DNA of 49,107 nucleotides, taken from IMG/VR virus record IMGVR_UViG_3300033388_003271, positions 1-49,107 of that record, one strand, 5' to 3'. Below, in pieces: positions 6,814 to 49,107 of the stretch. Every line of letters starts with the position of its first letter. Within the stretch, counting starts at the first letter, position 1. The notes below the pieces were generated by a model. The model had not been told where the DNA came from, ran no database searches, and saw only the letters and a program-made list of their open reading frames with translations. A program made the position numbers and the translations under genes. The stretch comes from a virus.

Positions 6814-7578
6814 TTAGTCCTTGTCGTAATTTACTATCTGGGTACCTATGAAATTCACAATCCCCGGGTGTACAGCGTTACCTAAATGGTATAACTGTTT
6901 TGTAACCAATCCATGCGATAACCCATCAATAATGAAATCATTTGAGGGTTTAAGGTATTTCCTTTTTTTGGCACTGTCTTTGTTGCAGCGTAAATGAACG
7001 CTTCCAATCGTAGGAACGACACCCCATCCCCACTCATGATTTTGGATACTTCCACTGATGACGCTCTTGCTGACATTTGCGCTCTTAGGGTAGGCCAGTA
7101 TCCAAACTCTTTCGCGCTGGTGTAAGGCGCCAATGTGGGAAGCTGCGATAATATGCCATTCCGCATCATACCCGACCTCATCGAGACCTTGCATAACGGT
7201 GACAAGTCCTTTACTTTGCATCCGTTTGACATTTTCAATAATAACCCAATTTGGTTTAATTTCATCGATGAGTCGTAAGTATTCAAACCAGAGTTTTGAA
7301 CGCTCACCGTGCAGTCCTGCACCTTTGCCGGCAACGCTGATATCCTGACACGGGAACCCGCCACACATAGCCGTAGGTTTAATTCCAAAAGCATCCAAAA
7401 CACCTTTATTCAAATCTCTAATATCTTCAAACATAGGTATTTTAGGCCAATGTTTTTTAATTACAGCACGCGGGTAAGCTTCCTTTTCACAGAAAGCAAC
7501 AGTTTTAAACTTACCTGATTTCTCTAAACCAAGTGAAAAACCACCTATGCCACTAAACAGGTCTAATAATTCATACAT
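6814..7578 (-). CDS. C5-cytosine DNA methyltransferase
   Basis: At 254 residues this is short for the family but has its landmarks in order: motif I DLFSGIGGFSLGLE (residues 6-19), motif IV GGFPCQDIS with the catalytic Cys (about residue 78), ENV (motif VI), QRERVWI (motif VIII) and GNAVHPGIV (motif X). The target-recognition region between VIII and X is small. It would methylate cytosine in phage DNA, probably to evade host restriction. It overlaps the VRR-NUC gene by 16 bases. Confidence 0.93.
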   Translation of the reverse strand: MYELLDLFSGIGGFSLGLEKSGKFKTVAFCEKEAYPRAVIKKHWPKIPMFEDIRDLNKGVLDAFGIKPTAMCGGFPCQDISVAGKGAGLHGERSKLWFEYLRLIDEIKPNWVIIENVKRMQSKGLVTVMQGLDEVGYDAEWHIIAASHIGALHQRERVWILAYPKSANVSKSVISGSIQNHEWGWGVVPTIGSVHLRCNKDSAKKRKYLKPSNDFIIDGLSHGLVTKQLYHLGNAVHPGIVNFIGTQIVNYDKD

Positions 7579-16749: not shown

Positions 16750-16920
16750 ATGACTGAAGAAGAACGATTAGAGAAAGTGAAAGCTGATATTGCATCAATC
16801 CGTGCTGACTTAGTTATAGGCGTGGAACACCCTGCAGTAGCAGCACAACAAATGTGTATAGCTATGTTGGTTGTGATTGATTTAGTTGATTTTCTCATTA
16901 CTGAAGCTGAAGAAGAGTAA
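16750..16920 (+). CDS. 56-residue hypothetical helical protein
   Basis: The frame begins MTEEERLEKVKADIASIRAD and ends EAEEE*. It is a charged helix, then a hydrophobic stretch (MCIAMLVVIDLVDFLI), then an acidic tail. It ends ten bases before the polymerase start. It may be a small accessory or membrane-associated peptide; this is unproven. Confidence 0.55.
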   Translation: MTEEERLEKVKADIASIRADLVIGVEHPAVAAQQMCIAMLVVIDLVDFLITEAEEE

Positions 16921-16930
16921 CACCCACCCA

Positions 16931-18928
16931 ATGAATTACGGTTACGATTTTGAAACTTACCCCAACTTCATCAGTTGCGCTTTTAAATGCGTTGAAACTG
17001 GTGAACGTTGGTATTATGAGATTTCAGAACGTGCTAATGATTTATATGATTTAGTTAATTTTTTCATTACCCTGCGTGATATGCGCGCTTCAATGATTGG
17101 GTTTAATAACCTTCATTTTGATTACCCCATAGTTCATTTTATTTTAGAGCATTATCATGGTTGGGTACATAGCACTAAAGAAGCAATAATTAGTTTCATT
17201 TATGAATTTGCTATGACGATCATTAACAGCAAATGGCACGAACGTTTTAATCATGTTATTTGGCAACCTGTTATTCACCAGATTGACCTTCTAAAAATTC
17301 ATCATTTTGATAATGAAAACCGTCGCACAAGTCTTAAAATGTTAGAATTCAATATGCATTCTCATAACATTGGTGACTTGCCGTTTCCACCTGGTACTTT
17401 TTTACAGTTACATCAGCTTGATACCATGAAATTTTACAACATGGAAGATGTTGAACAAACCCTTAAATTTCACGCATATAGCATTGACCAAATTGAATTC
17501 AGAGCTAAGTTATCAAAGCGTTATAATCGGGATTTTACAAACTTCAGTGATCCTAAAATAGGTGCTGAAATCATCATTGACCGACTTGGTAAAGATAAAT
17601 GTTATTACTATGATCAAAATAATAAACGACAACCAAGGCAAACTAAACGTGATATTATCCATTTAAAAGACGTTGTATTTCCGTATATTAAATTTAATCA
17701 CCCTGAATTTCAACGTATCCATCAATTTTTCCTAAGCCAATCGATCACCCAAACTAAAGGTGTATTTGATGAATTAGAATGTGTTATCGATGGTTTTAAA
17801 TATAAGTTTGGACTTGGTGGTATTCATGCATCAGTTGAACCATGTAATGTTGTGTCAGATGAATATTATGAAATTGTTGATATTGATGTTGGTGGATTTT
17901 ACCCCTCTTTAGAAATAGTGAATAATTTATATCCAGAGCATTTAGGTGCAGGGTTTCCAATTGTATTAAAAACCATTGTTGTTGAAAGGCGTACTTATGC
18001 CAAAAAAACAGCCGAAAATGACGGGTTTAAATTAGCCGGTAATGCTGCTTTTGGTCAGAGTAATAGTAAATTCAGTCCATTTCTTGACCCACAGTTTACC
18101 ATGGCAACCACAGTGAACGGCCAATTACTTCTGTGCATGTTATCTGAACTGCTAATGACCGTTCAGGGGTTAACAATGATTCAGTTTAATACAGACGGTG
18201 TGACTGTAAAAATACCTCGTGTGAACCGGCCGCATTTAGATATGGTTTGCAGACATTGGGAAGTAATCACAGGATTGGAACTTGAAAGCGTTAATTATCA
18301 TTCTATGAAAATTAGAGACGTTGGTAATTACATAGGTGTTTTTGAAGACGGGTCTACTAAAGATAAAGGCGCTTATGTATCAGCACACCCTGATAAGCAA
18401 ACACCAAAGGCTTGGCATAAAGACCTTGGTGGTTATATCATCCCTAAAGCAGCTAAAGCAGTCTTAGTTGATGGTGTTAACCTGGTTGAATATATAACCT
18501 CACCAGAACGTGACGTATTTGATTTTATGATGCGAACAAAGACACCTTACTCGTCTAAGCTGATGTATACGGGTGGTGATGGTGTTCAGCACCCACAACA
18601 GAAGGTTACCCGTTACCACATAGCCCATGACGGGGGTTATCTGGTCAAACACTCCCCACCAACGTCTCCCCACACTGTAGGCACCTTTAAAAAGGCTCAA
18701 AAGATCACAGACGCGCAATATTTTCAATATGATCCCATGGTGTGGAATGAAGCAGTCCATACAAAGAAGAAAAGCATTAACGGCACCAGGGAAGATAGAA
18801 TAAATGCAGGTTGGCAAGTCGCTATTTGTAACAACATGGATGACTTCAACCCTGCTAACTTGAACCACGCTTACTATATAGCTGAAGCTCGTAAGCTAAT
18901 TGACCCAATTTTGAAAAGGACTATTTGA
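16931..18928 (+). CDS. Family B DNA polymerase with 3'-5' exonuclease
   Basis: At 665 residues, with ATG 16931 chosen so that the exonuclease motif lies at the extreme N-terminus, this protein has exo I YDFETY (Asp6, Glu8), exo II GFNNLHFD (about 58-65) and exo III YNMEDV. Polymerase motif A is DIDVGGFYPSL (about 318), motif B is KLAGNAAFGQSN (about 366), and motif C is FNTDGV (about 419), where the usual DTD is NTD. About 240 residues follow motif C. It should be the replicative polymerase. Its last 57 bases recur at 19656. Confidence 0.92.
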   Translation: MNYGYDFETYPNFISCAFKCVETGERWYYEISERANDLYDLVNFFITLRDMRASMIGFNNLHFDYPIVHFILEHYHGWVHSTKEAIISFIYEFAMTIINSKWHERFNHVIWQPVIHQIDLLKIHHFDNENRRTSLKMLEFNMHSHNIGDLPFPPGTFLQLHQLDTMKFYNMEDVEQTLKFHAYSIDQIEFRAKLSKRYNRDFTNFSDPKIGAEIIIDRLGKDKCYYYDQNNKRQPRQTKRDIIHLKDVVFPYIKFNHPEFQRIHQFFLSQSITQTKGVFDELECVIDGFKYKFGLGGIHASVEPCNVVSDEYYEIVDIDVGGFYPSLEIVNNLYPEHLGAGFPIVLKTIVVERRTYAKKTAENDGFKLAGNAAFGQSNSKFSPFLDPQFTMATTVNGQLLLCMLSELLMTVQGLTMIQFNTDGVTVKIPRVNRPHLDMVCRHWEVITGLELESVNYHSMKIRDVGNYIGVFEDGSTKDKGAYVSAHPDKQTPKAWHKDLGGYIIPKAAKAVLVDGVNLVEYITSPERDVFDFMMRTKTPYSSKLMYTGGDGVQHPQQKVTRYHIAHDGGYLVKHSPPTSPHTVGTFKKAQKITDAQYFQYDPMVWNEAVHTKKKSINGTREDRINAGWQVAICNNMDDFNPANLNHAYYIAEARKLIDPILKRTI

Positions 18929-18932
18929 CATG
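18872..18932 (+). repeat. Polymerase 3'-end boundary repeat, copy 1
   Basis: These 61 bases run from within the polymerase C-terminus through its TGA to the ATG of the next gene. They recur at 19656-19716 with two differences (GAC/GAT and TTG/TTA), both synonymous in the polymerase frame. This copy is the one still attached to the polymerase gene. Confidence 0.95.
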
Positions 18933-19316
18933 ACCAGTAACATAAAACCACAAGACTTACGACATATTGCGAAATCTAAAACAGTGAGTAAAGACGTATT
19001 ACGTAACGGGTGTGATGAGGCAGCAGGTGAACTTGAGGAATCACAACGCTATAAACAAGATTTCTTTGACGTGTTTCACTGCATTATTGACGGTGCTGGT
19101 CACAAGAATGAATTTGCCATTAAATGGCGTAGTGAAGAAATCACCATTTTAGAAGCTGTTGACGGTTATGTTGACGAACTGAAAGAAACGATTGAAAAAT
19201 TGAAAACGGGTATTGATCAAGAACGTGAAGAATGTGCTAATATAGCAGACGCTATTGACAGTAAACGCGGTAATGAAGCTGAAATTGCAAAAGCTATTCG
19301 CAGCCGGAGTAAATAA
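18930..19316 (+). CDS. Hypothetical helical protein in the repeat-flanked block
   Basis: This 128-residue protein uses the ATG at the end of boundary repeat copy 1. It is highly charged and probably coiled-coil over residues 75-128 (VDELKETIEKLKTGIDQER). No family was recognised. It is the first of three small genes lying between the two polymerase-end repeats. Confidence 0.65.
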   Translation: MTSNIKPQDLRHIAKSKTVSKDVLRNGCDEAAGELEESQRYKQDFFDVFHCIIDGAGHKNEFAIKWRSEEITILEAVDGYVDELKETIEKLKTGIDQEREECANIADAIDSKRGNEAEIAKAIRSRSK

Positions 19317-19317
19317 T

Positions 19318-19488
19318 ATGACTGTAGGTAGCCATTACGGCCTTCTAAGTCTGTTGATGCTTTTGATAGGTATTGCAGACGGTGATGACCCTATTAGATG
19401 TGTTTTTGGTGTAATGGTTCACTTGTGGTTTATTAGAGCCGTAGAAAATTTCTTATCTAACCAAATCAAACTTCACAGGGGTAAATAA
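19318..19488 (+). CDS. 56-residue membrane protein
   Basis: ATG 19318 has GGAG eight bases upstream. The product begins MTVGSHYGLLSLLMLLIGIA and has a second hydrophobic stretch (CVFGVMVHLWFI) before a basic end. Two short membrane spans are plausible. Small two-span phage proteins can be holin-like or superinfection-related, but the location in the replication operon does not favour a lysis role. Confidence 0.6.
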   Translation: MTVGSHYGLLSLLMLLIGIADGDDPIRCVFGVMVHLWFIRAVENFLSNQIKLHRGK

Positions 19489-19489
19489 T

Positions 19490-19648
19490 ATGACGTTAGA
19501 TGAATTTATTGATGAAGAGTAAAAACGTCTTCAAACATTTAAGGAATTTTGGGTATCAGAAAGTTTAAAACATCCAGAGAATTACCCAAGTGAATTTGGT
19601 CCTGGTGAATGGGATGAACAACTTTTAGCTTTTAATAATTTTAATTAA
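19490..19648 (+). pseudogene. Small phage gene interrupted by an in-frame ochre
   Basis: Reading MTLDEFIDEE, then TAA (19520-19522), the same frame continues KRLQTFKEFWVSESLKHPEN and ends GEWDEQLLAFNNFN*. The intact form (about 52 residues, DEF...E.RL..F..W....PE..P....GEWDEQ) is a familiar small phage protein of unknown function. A CAA or GAA to TAA change is the likely lesion. No in-frame ATG follows the stop, so the rest would not be made without read-through. Confidence 0.75.
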
Positions 19649-19655
19649 GGACACG

Positions 19656-19716
19656 TACTATATAGCTGAAGCTCGTAAGCTAATTGATCCAATTTTAAAA
19701 AGGACTATTTGACATG
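19656..19716 (+). repeat. Polymerase 3'-end boundary repeat, copy 2
   Basis: This is a 59/61-identical copy of 18872-18932. It sits between the ochre-broken gene and the gene at 19714, whose ATG is the last codon of the repeat. It carries the polymerase C-terminal coding sequence out of context. The start codon for 19714 thus lies in exactly the setting used by 18930 after the real polymerase. Confidence 0.95.
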
Positions 19717-20127
19717 GGTACTATACTATCGTGCGAAGAAGAAATTTGTAATATTCGAATTATTGACGCTAAGTCTAAACCCCGTAAAGCTGTATCTGTG
19801 GTGGCGCGAGGCGATTATGTGTTCACGAAAATCAACGATAACTCGGTGATCGTATCAAAGCGATTAAATAAAGAAAAATGGGCTTTTCCACCATCGATGA
19901 CTGGTTGGGGTTTTAGTTGGATTCCCACCACTCTCAAGGCATTAGTGTTATTAAAAATGATTTCACCTGGTGTCGTTAAAAAACACGAAGAATTTTGTGC
20001 TGATAAAGACGCTATCAGAGAGTTAGGATATAGCAAAGACGCTTTTGAACGTTTATATAAAACCCACGGCAAGGATGTATTAAAGACGTGGTTTGACGGT
20101 CTGGTTGTTATATCAAAACAGGATTAA
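19714..20127 (+). CDS. Hypothetical protein downstream of boundary repeat copy 2
   Basis: This is a 137-residue protein with no recognised family. The first half is beta-rich with basic patches (NIRIIDAKSKPRKAVSVVA); the second half is helical (IRELGYSKDAFERLYKTHG). Because it follows a copy of the polymerase 3' end, it was probably the polymerase's direct neighbour before the block at 18930-19655 was added, or in a related donor genome. Confidence 0.65.
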   Translation: MGTILSCEEEICNIRIIDAKSKPRKAVSVVARGDYVFTKINDNSVIVSKRLNKEKWAFPPSMTGWGFSWIPTTLKALVLLKMISPGVVKKHEEFCADKDAIRELGYSKDAFERLYKTHGKDVLKTWFDGLVVISKQD

Positions 20128-20132
20128 TTAAT

Positions 20133-20465
20133 ATGCCTTTACCAGTGATCTTAGAAAGCCCCTACAGTGGTAATGTTGATTTAAACACTAGATACGCACG
20201 AGCATGTTTAAAAGATAGCCTGTCACGTAATGAAGCCCCTATTGCATCACATTTATTATACACTCAAGAGGGTGTTTTAGATGATAATAACCCTGAAGAC
20301 CGTAAACTTGGTATTGAAGCCGGTCTAGCCTGGTGTCACTTAGCTGAACGAACAGTTGTTTATATAGACCTTGGTATCACTGAAGGTATGACAGAGGGTA
20401 TTGAACGTGCTGAAAGCTTCAATAAAGTTATTATTACAAGATCGTTACCTGAATGGGGTGATTGA
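20133..20465 (+). CDS. DUF7768-like protein (nucleoside deoxyribosyltransferase-like)
   Basis: This 110-residue protein matches a widespread phage family. It has an ILESPYSGNVDLNTRYARAC start, SRNEAPIASHLLYTQEGVLD, an RKLGIEAGLAW helix, VVYIDLGITEGM, and a final GIERAE...RSLPEW. The fold is related to DUF4406/nucleoside 2-deoxyribosyltransferase-like proteins, hinting at nucleotide salvage. Activity cannot be read from the sequence. It is the last gene of the plus operon, facing the late operon end-on. Confidence 0.75.
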   Translation: MPLPVILESPYSGNVDLNTRYARACLKDSLSRNEAPIASHLLYTQEGVLDDNNPEDRKLGIEAGLAWCHLAERTVVYIDLGITEGMTEGIERAESFNKVIITRSLPEWGD

Positions 20466-44939: not shown

Positions 44940-46940
44940 TTAATTTACATCAACCCACAAAACACCTTCACCAAATTCAACCGCCCATTTCCAGAATGCA
45001 GCATAATCAATACGTAATTCTTTAGGGTCTTCGTTGAGCTCACGCGTGACCTGTAAGGCAAACATATCCAGCGCGGCCATGTTATAGACCCTACAATCCC
45101 AAGCATGGTTTGGTTTGTTAGGAATTTTTATCCAGTTATAACCAATTACTTCACCGGTCTTGCGGCTTTTCTCAACCATTTTTTGTTCAGCTTCATACTC
45201 TCTAAAATAATCATCACCATAATCATGTGGGTAGTTCGGGTAACCCATGGGTTGGTCTTCACCATCACGCCAATCAGAACGAAGCCAGCTTGCAAGCCTA
45301 TCTTTGTACAAAGTGACATTAATGTCAGCAGCGTGTGTCTTATCATGAAAAAAGAAGTTCTTGAGGGCTGCTGTTTTGCGCATACTGTCACGACCAAAAA
45401 TAGGTATGACACCTGATGAATACCGGCCGCAAAATGACCGCACCGAATCAGTTGCATAACCTGCATCAACCAAAGTTAGTTTAATTGGGTATGACCTACC
45501 ATCGTCAGATACCCACCGCTCGTTTTCAATTATGTCAGCTAACTTGAACCACATTAAAGAATCAGCATCTTCAACAGTTTTGTTTTCTTCAGGTTCAAGG
45601 TGTCGCCAATCAACCGAGAACGAACGACCATCAGCACACCAACCTAATATTTCAATATCAATGCGGGTTTTATGGACGTCAGCAGCTGCTGTAAGCATGA
45701 CAACAGGTGACCCTGTCTCAAGTAATGCTGCCTTATTGGGTATCTGATTGCGGCCATATATGGCCCGCCTGTGAGTGATCACCCGTTCAAATGTGGGTGC
45801 CTCACCGCGTTCTTCCCATGGTAGGCCGGTAATGGTGTTGACGAAAGATTTATAACCATCAACATCTTTAACCCGCCCTGTTACAACGTCAAAAACTTCA
45901 GTAAACTCACGGGCAATATCAACCCATGAATACATACCAAGCGGGGAATATAAAGCGTTCAAGTGATATGATCTTGTGAAATCATCTTTAGCCCTGGATG
46001 TAGGGCGCCACTCTGCATAAGGCGTACCATCAACAACCTGGTTAGCGTTTGCAAACATAGCCGGTTTATGATGATCATAAATAGCTGCACCACATTCACA
46101 GCAAATATAAAAAACCTCTTCAGGAATTAAATAACCGTCTTTATCAACCTCAATATTTAAACCATATTCACGCCCGTCTTCCTGCTTACCCTTCATAACC
46201 AGTGTTTGTTTAAACTCACAATGAGGGCAAGGTACGTACCTTTGGCGCTCGTCACCTTCTTTATATAATCGATCAATTTTAGAAGTTTGTTTAATCGTCG
46301 GTGTGGATGTAAAGAACATCTTACGACGCTTACCGTATGCGTTTGTTCTTTTTTGAGCTAGTCGTACAGGGTCACCTTCATCACCTACCGTATCGGGCAT
46401 ACCGTCTAATTCATCAGCATAAAAACGCTTAACCGATATAGCACGTAACTTACCAGGGTTGTTAGCACCCACAGCGCGAATAAAACCACCTGTAAATTCT
46501 TTTAATGTTTTGGTACTACCAGTACGGCGCGATGTTGGATCACTGGCTTTAATCTTATCAGACAAACCACAGTGATTGACTAAAGCACTAATTTTCACTT
46601 CCATTGCTGATTCTGCTAAATCTTTATCAGCAGTCAGATAAAAGAACGGTGCAGGGCTTTCATCAATGGTGTACCCTATCCAGTTCTCAGCAGCCGTTGT
46701 TGCACCGATTTGTGCACCTTTCATCAGAGTGGTTTGCTGTATTGGGCTATTATCGCTTAAGCAATCCATGATCTCAACAAAATGAGGGTTCCAGGTGTTT
46801 GACCAGAAACCAGGGCGGGGCGATAACTCAGAAGGAATAAAACGTTTATTCTCTGCCCACTCACTAACTGACATTTTAACGACTTCAACAGGTAGCGAAT
46901 TAAACCCATCAGTTATATACGTTTGATCATTCAGCAGCAT
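44940..46940 (-). CDS. terL: Terminase large subunit (GpA type)
   Basis: This 666-residue protein matches the lambda GpA family: VSEWAENKRFIPSELSPRPG, Walker A-like LMKGAQIGATTAAENW (about residue 73-88), and Walker B FYADELDGMP. The TSTPT coupling motif follows, then a zinc finger (CPHCEFKQ with CCECG), and the nuclease region (LTAAADVHKTRIDIEILGW, VDAGYATDSV). It cuts and translocates DNA. The first nine codons (MLLNDQTYI) lie in the repeat also found at 48207, and the start overlaps the stop of the inserted small gene. MSVSEW at residue 23 is an alternative start. Confidence 0.93.
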   Translation of the reverse strand: MLLNDQTYITDGFNSLPVEVVKMSVSEWAENKRFIPSELSPRPGFWSNTWNPHFVEIMDCLSDNSPIQQTTLMKGAQIGATTAAENWIGYTIDESPAPFFYLTADKDLAESAMEVKISALVNHCGLSDKIKASDPTSRRTGSTKTLKEFTGGFIRAVGANNPGKLRAISVKRFYADELDGMPDTVGDEGDPVRLAQKRTNAYGKRRKMFFTSTPTIKQTSKIDRLYKEGDERQRYVPCPHCEFKQTLVMKGKQEDGREYGLNIEVDKDGYLIPEEVFYICCECGAAIYDHHKPAMFANANQVVDGTPYAEWRPTSRAKDDFTRSYHLNALYSPLGMYSWVDIAREFTEVFDVVTGRVKDVDGYKSFVNTITGLPWEERGEAPTFERVITHRRAIYGRNQIPNKAALLETGSPVVMLTAAADVHKTRIDIEILGWCADGRSFSVDWRHLEPEENKTVEDADSLMWFKLADIIENERWVSDDGRSYPIKLTLVDAGYATDSVRSFCGRYSSGVIPIFGRDSMRKTAALKNFFFHDKTHAADINVTLYKDRLASWLRSDWRDGEDQPMGYPNYPHDYGDDYFREYEAEQKMVEKSRKTGEVIGYNWIKIPNKPNHAWDCRVYNMAALDMFALQVTRELNEDPKELRIDYAAFWKWAVEFGEGVLWVDVN

Positions 46941-46954
46941 CGATCATCATTTCA
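46913..46954 (-). repeat. TerS/TerL junction repeat, copy A
   Basis: This 42-base segment encodes EMMIDAAE* in one frame and the TerL start MLLNDQTYI in another. It is 40/42 identical to 48207-48248. Here it joins the RHH-like gene (46927-47118) to terL, so the RHH-like protein has acquired a TerS-like C-terminus. Confidence 0.93.
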
Positions 46955-47118
46955 TACCCAGCTTTCCGCAACAAGAACTTGACCAAGCTTTCACCATTAC
47001 GGTCCGCATTAATCTTTTTCAGTGCCTCAATCGGAAACCGCATTGAAACCATTTTCGTTGTTGGCTTCGATTTCTTCCGGCCTGAATTGGGGCGTTTGCC
47101 GCCGTGGGTGTTTTTCAT
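46927..47118 (-). CDS. Small RHH/AT-hook-like DNA-binding protein with TerS-derived C-terminus
   Basis: This 63-residue protein starts at ATG 47118 with GGAACGGATGG upstream. It begins MKNTHGGKRPNSGRKKSKPT, the HGG.RPNSGRK hook common in small phage DNA-binding proteins, followed by a ribbon-helix-helix-like KMVSMRFPIEALKKI. Its last residues, EMMIDAAE, are shared with the end of TerS and encoded by the junction repeat. It seems to be a foreign gene fused in frame to the duplicated TerS end. Confidence 0.75.
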   Translation of the reverse strand: MKNTHGGKRPNSGRKKSKPTTKMVSMRFPIEALKKINADRNGESLVKFLLRKAGYEMMIDAAE

Positions 47119-47119
47119 A

Positions 47120-47305
47120 TTACCATCCGTTCCTTTTCCAAAAATCAAGAGCGTCTTTCTTCTCATACGCTATCCAGCATCCAGCAAACGCCACAGATAT
47201 TCCTGCGATATACAACGCGAACCCCGGTGATTTTCGCAAGATCACCCACCACGGGATCAATCCGTTTTCAGGCGTTTCCGGCCATCTCCAGTTAATATTA
47301 TTCAT
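47120..47305 (-). CDS. 61-residue membrane protein in the inserted block
   Basis: AGGAGGT seven bases before ATG 47305 is the strongest ribosome site in the block. The protein begins MNNINWRWPETPENGLIPWW, has one hydrophobic helix (GFALYIAGISVAFAGCWIAY) and ends with a charged tail. Many Trp residues flank the membrane. It might be an exclusion or holin-like peptide; no family was recognised. Confidence 0.65.
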   Translation of the reverse strand: MNNINWRWPETPENGLIPWWVILRKSPGFALYIAGISVAFAGCWIAYEKKDALDFWKRNGW

Positions 47306-47314
47306 TATAACCTC

Positions 47315-47578
47315 CTAACAAAGCTGCATTATGTTTTTGTCGTGGCAAATCGCAATGCGATCTGTTTGGTAATCCCGGCAAAGAGCAAACATTGTCATTT
47401 TTGTGCGACGGAAGTTTTTATCTAAAACATAATAAGTTGCAACATTTGCAGAATTTCGTTTTTTCAGCTCCATCGCGTTTCCGGTTCTTCTGTGTACGAA
47501 AAGGTGACTTGGTGCTGTTGTCACGACTTCACCAGAAGATTCATACCTGAAAAATCCTTGTAAACGTGAGCGATACAT
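47315..47578 (-). CDS. Hypothetical protein in the inserted block
   Basis: The frame from ATG 47578 gives 87 residues (MYRSRLQGFFRYESSGEVVT); a TTG start at 47605 would add nine. It overlaps the upstream gene by 58 bases in another frame, so one of the two may be mis-started or a frameshift may link them. The product is basic with a likely beta core (TYYVLDKNFRRTKMTMFALC). The function is unknown. Confidence 0.55.
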   Translation of the reverse strand: MYRSRLQGFFRYESSGEVVTTAPSHLFVHRRTGNAMELKKRNSANVATYYVLDKNFRRTKMTMFALCRDYQTDRIAICHDKNIMQLC

Positions 47579-47727
47579 TCTTTTGCGCTGTTGTAGATAT
47601 ACCAAACATAGCCAACGCCCGAGACGTGCTGTTTTTTGAAACTGGCAGAGGCGGGGAGTGCTGCTTTAATTTCACCTAAAGCTTTATTGCTGAATGATTT
47701 TGCTTTTAAAATATGTGTGGTTGTCAT
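47521..47727 (-). CDS. Hypothetical protein, first gene of the inserted block's own operon
   Basis: AGGGGAAAG precedes ATG 47727, and a good promoter lies about 35 bases further upstream. The 68-residue product is alpha/beta (ALGEIKAALPASASFKKQHV, YVWYIYNSAKECIAHVYKDF). Its codons and G+C differ from the phage background. No family was recognised. Confidence 0.6.
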   Translation of the reverse strand: MTTTHILKAKSFSNKALGEIKAALPASASFKKQHVSGVGYVWYIYNSAKECIAHVYKDFSGMNLLVKS

Positions 47728-47762
47728 TTTCTTTCCCCTGTGTTTCCGTTTCCTTAATCATG

Positions 47763-47790
47763 AGTATATACAGTTTTCATGGCAGGTCAA
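47763..47790 (-). promoter_or_regulatory. Promoter inside the inserted block
   Basis: On the minus strand TTGACC (47790-47785), a 16-base spacer and TATACT (47768-47763) form a good sigma-70 promoter upstream of the gene at 47727. An insert with its own promoter inside a late operon is the classic sign of a moron expressed independently of late transcription. Confidence 0.6.
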
Positions 47791-47837
47791 TACATAATTC
47801 AAACTAAATGTAAAATCTATGGTAATTTAAATAAAAA

Positions 47838-47854
47838 GATCATTCAGCAGCATC
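47838..47854 (-). repeat. TerS/TerL junction repeat, partial copy C
   Basis: GATCATTCAGCAGCATC is a 17-base exact piece of the junction repeat. On the minus strand it encodes DAAE* and the start region ATGCTGCTGAATGATC, but no gene uses either now. It marks a third, decayed junction between the gene at 47881 and the promoter-bearing sub-block. Confidence 0.85.
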
Positions 47855-47880
47855 TAGCACCCTTATTACCCTTGATTACT

Positions 47881-48195
47881 TTAATTTTGGGACGCTTTAT
47901 AAATTTTATTAGCTAGATCACGCCTACGATAAAGATCAGGATTACCAGGTCTATCAGCATGACTAACCCTTTTATCAATAGGGATGTTAAAACCTGTGTT
48001 CAAACTACCCCACAGATTTTTAGCTTTCATTTTAATTAAATTCGGGACACCATCAGAACTAGCAATCTTTGCATTTAATGAATGATTTAAAATAAGAAGT
48101 GACCGCATAGAAACAATACATAATCTTAATTCTTCATCAGTACAATCTTCACCCATACGAGCGGATTCTATAATTTCAGTGGTTGTTCTCATCAT
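47881..48195 (-). CDS. Hypothetical packaging-region protein
   Basis: From ATG 48195 (AAGGG upstream) this gives 104 residues starting MMRTTTEIIESARMGEDC. A longer form from 48234 would begin MLLNDQTYI, exactly like TerL, because it uses the duplicated TerL start. The sequence (DEELRLCIVSMRSLLILNHS, ending in GNPDLYRRRDLANKIYKA) resembles a small phage family encoded near terminases. The function is unknown. Confidence 0.65.
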   Translation of the reverse strand: MMRTTTEIIESARMGEDCTDEELRLCIVSMRSLLILNHSLNAKIASSDGVPNLIKMKAKNLWGSLNTGFNIPIDKRVSHADRPGNPDLYRRRDLANKIYKASQN

Positions 48196-48206
48196 TTTAA
48201 AAACCC

Positions 48207-48248
48207 TTATATACGTTTGGTCATTCAGCAGCATCGACCATCATTTCA
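48207..48248 (-). repeat. TerS/TerL junction repeat, copy B
   Basis: This copy joins TerS (EMMVDAAE*) to the gene at 47881, and it still contains an intact TerL start reading MLLNDQTYI. It differs from copy A at two positions: one is synonymous in the TerL frame, and the other changes Val to Ile in the TerS frame. Confidence 0.93.
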
Positions 48249-48982
48249 GTTTCAGGATGTGATTCAAGCGTCTGTACGATCTTACTTTTTGAATCTCGTA
48301 AAATCATAGACACGTTGTCATGTATTTCTTGTTCAATTTTATTAGTGAAATTTTCGTCTTGTTCAAGCCCGGCAACCACAGTGCTAACACCTATTGGCAT
48401 TTCATTTAATAATCTAGCACTAAGTTCAGCTAAATATTTCATACACACATCGACAAACAAAGCACGATCAACCAGCTTACCACGTAATTGAAGCGCCTGG
48501 TTTTCTGCTTTAGTTGCATCCGCCTCAATTTTACGAAGCTTAGCTTTAGCCATACGTGCTTCAAATGAATTAAGGTCTGGTTCTGGTGGTGCAGTCGGTA
48601 CATGGGGTGATCGCTGCTGCTGTGATTGTGGTGGTAAATCTGTGCGTGGTCCTGACGCTTGGGGTGATCGCTGCTGTTGTGGGAGCGGGGGTATATGGGG
48701 TCCAGCTTTAACCTTTACAGGCTTTACCTTCTTAACCCGTTTAGGTTTAGGTACAGGCTTTACTTTATCCACGATACCAAGCTTAAGCTTTATTTGGTCG
48801 TCAGTTAGAACAACACCAGCTTCCGCCATATATAATAAAACGGTTGGGTTACGCGTATCAATAAACTTACCATCTACAATCGGTAAAGCAGGTGAACGCC
48901 CTTCGCGTGATTTTGTTGCTTGGGTTATAGCTGCAGGCGTTTTACCCAAAAGCCTAGACAGCTGAATTTTTCTAATCTTCAT
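48221..48982 (-). CDS. terS: Terminase small subunit (Nu1-like)
   Basis: This 253-residue protein starts at ATG 48982, because MKIRKIQLSRLLGKTPAAIT is the standard Nu1 winged-helix opening. An upstream in-frame extension is hydrophobic and implausible. After the HTH come a basic Lys/Pro linker and a Pro/Gln-rich region with QQQRSP twice. The C-terminal part is KLRKIEADATKAENQALQLR and GKLVDRALFVDV, as in lambda-type small subunits. It recognises the packaging site and hands DNA to TerL. It ends in the junction repeat. Confidence 0.88.
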   Translation of the reverse strand: MKIRKIQLSRLLGKTPAAITQATKSREGRSPALPIVDGKFIDTRNPTVLLYMAEAGVVLTDDQIKLKLGIVDKVKPVPKPKRVKKVKPVKVKAGPHIPPLPQQQRSPQASGPRTDLPPQSQQQRSPHVPTAPPEPDLNSFEARMAKAKLRKIEADATKAENQALQLRGKLVDRALFVDVCMKYLAELSARLLNEMPIGVSTVVAGLEQDENFTNKIEQEIHDNVSMILRDSKSKIVQTLESHPETEMMVDAAE

Positions 48983-49107
48983 TTTATAAAAATAGCATAC
49001 TGTTAAAAAAAACAACAGAACTAAAAAATAAAATGCTGCACTGCACCAAATTAACATAGGGGAAATACAGAAAATGTGTTTCTAGTGCGCTGAACCCAAG
49101 ACAAAAT
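48983..49107. other. Non-coding segment upstream of TerS, candidate packaging site
   Basis: Together with 1-54 this leaves about 180 bases without a gene between the first late gene and TerS in the circle. In lambda the cos site lies at this place. I see A/T tracts, an interrupted palindrome TGCACTGCA (about 49034-49042), and a CTGTT...AACAG pair around 48999-49017, but no recognisable cos consensus. The link to packaging comes from gene order only. Confidence 0.35.
49090..49107. repeat. Terminal direct repeat, right copy
   Basis: This is identical to bases 1-18. The duplication should be counted once when the circle is closed, giving 49089 unique bases. Confidence 0.85.

Follow-up and report, generated by a model that had tools for sequence, protein, structure and literature searches.

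The closest described systems to the locus reported here come from Island3 and LRRHood (Pope et al., 2011; PMC3029335). In mycobacteriophage Island3, the orphan gene 68 is inserted after gene 67 and a 60-bp 3' end is common to both genes, with a single copy present in Brujita. In LRRHood, a 1.35-kb insert that includes the repressor gene 44 lies between 29-bp repeats at a gene end, and the repeated sequence is single in relatives. Boundary repeats tied to mosaic or variable genes have also been described as mobile regulatory cassettes of the T4 type (PeSL) and as the start-associated sequences of Cluster K (PMC4503421, PMC3203893). The repeat of Island3 genes 67 and 68 was re-measured in this study as a positive control, where it spanned 58 bp at 91% identity and ended at the stop codon.

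The window analyzed here is a stretch of 49,107 nucleotides that comprises the entire IMG/VR virus record IMGVR_UViG_3300033388_003271, an uncultured metagenome contig. A tail sheath gene indicated a contractile-tailed phage, and the nearest relatives of its terminase and portal were found in phages of Vibrio, Shewanella, Oceanospirillum, and Acinetobacter. Since the first and last 18 bp (1-18 and 49090-49107; CTGAACCCAAGACAAAAT) are identical, the record is probably a complete genome, apparently opened just upstream of TerS and close to the expected packaging start. The genome also includes a C5 cytosine methylase gene (6814-7578), with a possible role in self-protection of the phage DNA.

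Both terminase genes are encoded on the minus strand. TerS (48221-48982), which ends in ETEMMVDAAE before its stop codon, matched phrog_57 (E=3.6e-7) and a TerS profile built from relatives (E=5e-16). TerL (44940-46940), of the GpA family, matched PF05876 (E=1.7e-62), PF20454 (E=2.2e-46), and phrog_15 (E=2e-166). As described by the first-pass annotation, the two genes are separated by five small minus-strand ORFs, here found to span approximately 1.25 kb, and the sequence of their junction is repeated around this cargo. Its two 42-bp copies were recovered on the minus strand at 48207-48248 (copy A) and 46913-46954 (copy B), exactly where they had been placed, with 40 of 42 positions matching (self-BLAST E=8e-12). 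In the repeat, the native TerS end makes up the 5' half and the native TerL start the 3' half. Both halves are found in each copy, with the native TerS end in copy A and the native TerL start in copy B; hence, an ancestral contiguous junction would have been duplicated as the cargo of approximately 1.25 kb entered. This simplest history, in which DNA entered between contiguous and overlapping TerS and TerL genes (ATGCTGCTGAATGA) and their junction was duplicated, is well supported. The annotated 17-bp remnant at 47838-47854 (copy C, minus strand) also proved to be an exact match and beyond chance, as 3000 dinucleotide shuffles of the 1252-bp cargo produced matches of 13 bp at most.

The duplicated junction is also visible in the proteins of the cargo, where the first ORF can start with TerL residues and the last ends with TerS residues as a result of the duplication. 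The first ORF (47881-48195, minus strand) may be extended to 48234 with the start MLLNDQTYI in the TerL frame, as had been proposed, but its own start at 48195 is more likely because its sole family match (phrog_21314, E=5e-7) begins at residue 15. It is the only cargo gene for which a homolog was found in annotated phages, and the match is weak: a distant homolog occurs in Vibrio phage vB_VpaM_MAR, where no annotated terminase lies nearby. The next two minus-strand ORFs, at 47521-47727 and at 47315-47605 (its true start probably internal), had no family, and a fourth (47120-47305, minus strand) encodes a hydrophobic stretch. The last ORF (46927-47118, minus strand) ends in EMMIDAAE and a stop at 46927, where TerS ends in EMMVDAAE and a stop, confirming the borrowed tail reported for it. 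Sequence searches against Pfam, NCBIfam, PADLOC, and PDB, however, did not support its earlier label as RHH-like, and in PHROGs it gave only a weak match (E=0.0075) to a family of unknown function. No transposase was found in the five ORFs by Pfam, NCBIfam, or PHROG, and searches of the cargo for defence families and RNA families found none.

Apart from repetitive coding stretches, a self-BLAST of the whole window yielded only two strong dispersed direct repeats, the TerS/TerL junction and a longer repeat, absent from the first-pass annotation, at the boundary of the DNA polymerase gene (16886-18928, plus strand; phrog_1252, E=1e-170). The latter consists of the 3' end of the polymerase gene and the next start codon, spans 61-66 bp, and flanks small genes. 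Copy 1 (18867-18932) and copy 2 (19651-19716), both on the plus strand, are 94% identical over 66 bp, with a core of 59/61 (E=4e-22). A random segment of 42 bp or 61 bp would be expected to include a gene 3' end in approximately 5% or 8% of cases, respectively; both repeats of the window do. The two repeat families are unrelated in sequence and unequal in length. Between the polymerase copies lie the plus-strand ORFs 18930-19316, which had no homolog in the phage collection and no reliable family, and 19318-19488. Directly after copy 2, a plus-strand ORF (19714-20127) for which no homolog was found begins with the ATG in which the repeat ends and is presumed to be the original neighbor of the polymerase. 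Judged from its arrangement, this boundary reads like that of TerS and TerL, where copy 2 would give ORF 19714 its upstream sequence.

Two further observations were made on the polymerase side. A cargo ORF at 19490-19649 has a stop after 10 codons and is open again beyond it, and it is probably a decaying gene. The stretches at 19306-19327, 19478-19499, and 20121-20142 present alike combinations of stop codon, ribosome-binding site, and start codon (GGAGTAAATAATATGAC and variants) ahead of successive small genes, and they could conceivably be further boundary repeats or convergent ribosome-binding sites.

A comparison with relatives in which TerS directly overlaps TerL, as the first-pass annotation had suggested, was carried out with profiles for both proteins and included 80 TerL relatives in which both genes were found. 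Adjacency was the rule (62 of 80), and 18 loci, the window among them, carried cargo between the two genes. A second sample of 80 loci, around two other phages, included 56 adjacent pairs and 24 with cargo; the two samples overlap, and their counts are not additive. The cargo of the relatives included an HNH nuclease, several N6/N4 DNA methylases, an HTH protein, and many orphans, which by a hand count formed roughly two dozen unrelated groups. Most of these inserts, including the HNH insert of L008, had no junction repeat above control.

Duplications were observed against empty sites in two other lineages. In L034/L250 and L254, the TerS tail GCTCGCCGAGGCCGCG closes TerS and recurs ahead of TerL, and the two flanks, when aligned to the empty site of L251/L252, overlap over 21 bp; the TerL of L251 is 96% identical to that of L034. 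In L205, compared with the empty L200/L206, the overlap was 13-14 bp and the direct repeat 17/18 bp. Its cargo is a short ORF with paired cysteines that starts in the TerS/TerL overlap and ends in EALKNV before the stop codon, where TerS ends in RALKNV. Such pairs with and without cargo are the solid part of the evidence, although they could conceivably represent the opposite direction, in which recombination between the repeats removed the cargo. No empty-site relative of the window phage itself was found in the collections, where the closest TerL was 50% identical and had its own small ORF at the junction; a single-protein search with the window TerL gave one 26% match in viral contigs and none in genome contigs. 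Additionally, L042 carries a 31-bp repeat at the first two boundaries behind TerS. Unlike the fixed-length target duplications of a transposon or insertion sequence, these duplications vary in length, with 42 and 61-66 bp in the window and 21 and approximately 18 bp in relatives. In a separate pair, L177 and L176, the TerL genes are 99% identical with and without a 190-bp TerS/TerL insert, and the flanks overlap by only 1 bp; here TerS comes from a more diverged lineage, which suggests an exchange at the junction.

A repeat scan that covered 1.4 Mb revealed similar boundaries at other genes. In L106, a DUF2800 gene and a GapR-like gene flank a 48-aa ORF, and identical 24-bp copies enclose an unrelated interior. 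The ORF starts with MSE as does the downstream gene and ends in KDVFQ before the stop as does the upstream gene. Identical 33-bp boundary copies were found in L105, and the patterns of both L106 and L105 occurred in their own contigs only. A stop-aligned survey, in which adjacent and non-adjacent genes were compared, yielded a single strong adjacent pair (L106) in 872, and the signature is thus rare and its cases too few for a general claim; any claim on frequency is further weakened because most examples were found after looking. Two further sets of repeats were also noted. In L081 (3313-4474), 118-bp (86%) and 36-bp (94%) boundary repeats surround small genes downstream of a terminase and are of a regulatory type with the common start region MNTFT, and in L011 (3700-5068), 27-bp and 53-bp repeats of ribosome-binding and start regions occur in a variable gene region near TerL.

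The cargo likely entered through recombination or template switching in which the process resumed upstream of the point where it had left the genome, thereby duplicating the junction. Support for the duplication itself is good, while its molecular route is our inference. Foreign DNA with small genes would enter the contiguous, overlapping junction: recombination or replication would leave the genome just inside TerL, copy or join the foreign DNA, and resume in the tail of TerS, such that a 42-bp copy flanks each side. Copy A would preserve the end of TerS and copy B the start of TerL, and the half left over in each would provide, respectively, a potential start for the first cargo gene and the real end of the last one. 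An event resuming downstream would remove a portion of an essential gene and would not survive. Because the genes overlap, only insertions that repeat at least the overlap leave both intact, and selection would keep the upstream-resuming events. The Gp2.5-like ssDNA binding and annealing protein of the phage (15504-16490; phrog_7011, E=3e-37) is a candidate actor, and a DUF2800 protein is also encoded in the window; the two make annealing or template switching plausible without being evidence for it. Once in place, the repeats could allow short-homology recombination to remove or swap the cargo.

The main competing explanation is that a short boundary sequence common to several phages existed beforehand, and that homologous recombination brought the cargo in from a phage in which it already lay beside this boundary. 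This is the view taken for Island3 and LRRHood by Pope et al. (2011; PMC3029335), and the common cargo but differing TerL starts of L034 and L254 suggest such an exchange at the junction. However, it accounts for transfer and not for the origin of the first double-repeat arrangement, and the exact junction pattern of the window, when sought in viral contigs, was present in no other contig; we regard it as possible but rather unlikely. It is less probable still that an unequal recombination between two phages placed the cargo and a second TerS before TerL, with the extra TerS later trimmed to its tail. The same final anatomy would result, including the TerS tail on the last cargo gene, but an intermediate with two TerS genes is required and none was found in the TerS/TerL survey, where only the best TerS match per locus was scored. 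The cargo homologs upstream of TerS that this history predicts were also found in none of approximately 160 loci with both genes, of which a few kb were visible.

Two other explanations were considered. TerS and TerL lie near the packaging start in many phages, and the repeats could accordingly be functional sites unrelated to gene gain, such as a packaging signal, a recombinase target, or a regulatory element. This seems very improbable given that the two repeat families of the window differ in sequence and length, that an Rfam search gave no match, and that the coding sequence of the flanking genes accounts for each repeat. An assembly artefact is conceivable for an uncultured IMG/VR contig, but it is the least probable of these explanations: the TerS/TerL copies differ at two positions, their longest exact run of 17 bp is below usual assembly k-mers, and the same anatomy occurs in independent contigs and in the isolate genome of Island3.

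If the cargo entered by junction-duplicating insertion, it may have done so more than once. The two successive insertions proposed by the first-pass annotation are plausible as independent acquisitions in light of the third copy and the differing base composition (33.8% versus 41.3% GC), and copy C is most likely the trace of a second event at this junction. Tandem duplication with later divergence was rejected because near-identical flanks enclose unrelated interiors: in the window, flanks that are 95% identical by self-BLAST surround an interior unlike either TerS or TerL, and the flanks of L106 reach 100% identity. A tandem duplication followed by wholesale replacement of the interior, also raised earlier, is conceivable. 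The suggested dating of the insertions by repeat divergence was uninformative, also as to their order, as each repeat core holds two differences (two in 42 bp at the junction) and gene conversion is possible.

How genes are added inside tightly packed, overlapping phage operons has so far been deduced mostly from mosaic end states. At this locus, the event is recorded in the junction itself, and occupied and empty relatives exist at one well-conserved site, so that duplication length, cargo turnover, and reversibility become measurable. We tentatively suggest that overlap-preserving insertion could be a general means by which compact phage operons gain genes, one that would use no transposase, duplicate an overlap or ribosome-binding region of variable length, couple the cargo translationally at once, and be reversible through the repeats. 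For annotators, the locus is a caution that protein ends may be borrowed from neighboring genes.

Morons and free-standing homing endonucleases likewise add genes at places where relatives have the two neighbors side by side, as does the HNH gene at the TerS/TerL junction of L008. The window differs from homing endonuclease insertions in that its cargo contains no endonuclease family, with no HNH, GIY-YIG, or LAGLIDADG gene found. PeSL and the Cluster K sequences are many copies of one regulatory motif, whereas each repeat of the window is private to one pair of coding ends. LRRHood resembles it in having cargo of like length between repeats, but at a site that is not one of overlapping genes. 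The likeness to Island3 lies in an extra gene flanked by a repeat of the upstream gene end; Island3, however, has one gene and one repeat pair, with the start of the downstream gene outside the repeat, whereas the repeat of the window spans the stop/start overlap of two essential genes and is accompanied by a third remnant and a second, unrelated boundary. As in Island3 and LRRHood, direct repeats from the upstream gene end flank the cargo and a cargo gene ends in the upstream tail, and a single-copy, cargo-free relative was seen for L034/L254 (L251) and L205 (L200), though not for the window itself. Because Pope et al. (2011) described the same anatomy and the Island3 repeat was recovered by the same method, the window is a further case of that known kind, and earlier general descriptions of boundary-repeat insertions may exist. 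Relative to the open-access papers covered by a limited search, it adds that the arrangement recurs at TerS/TerL and affects two unrelated boundaries of the same genome, as well as the third remnant and the empty-site measurements.
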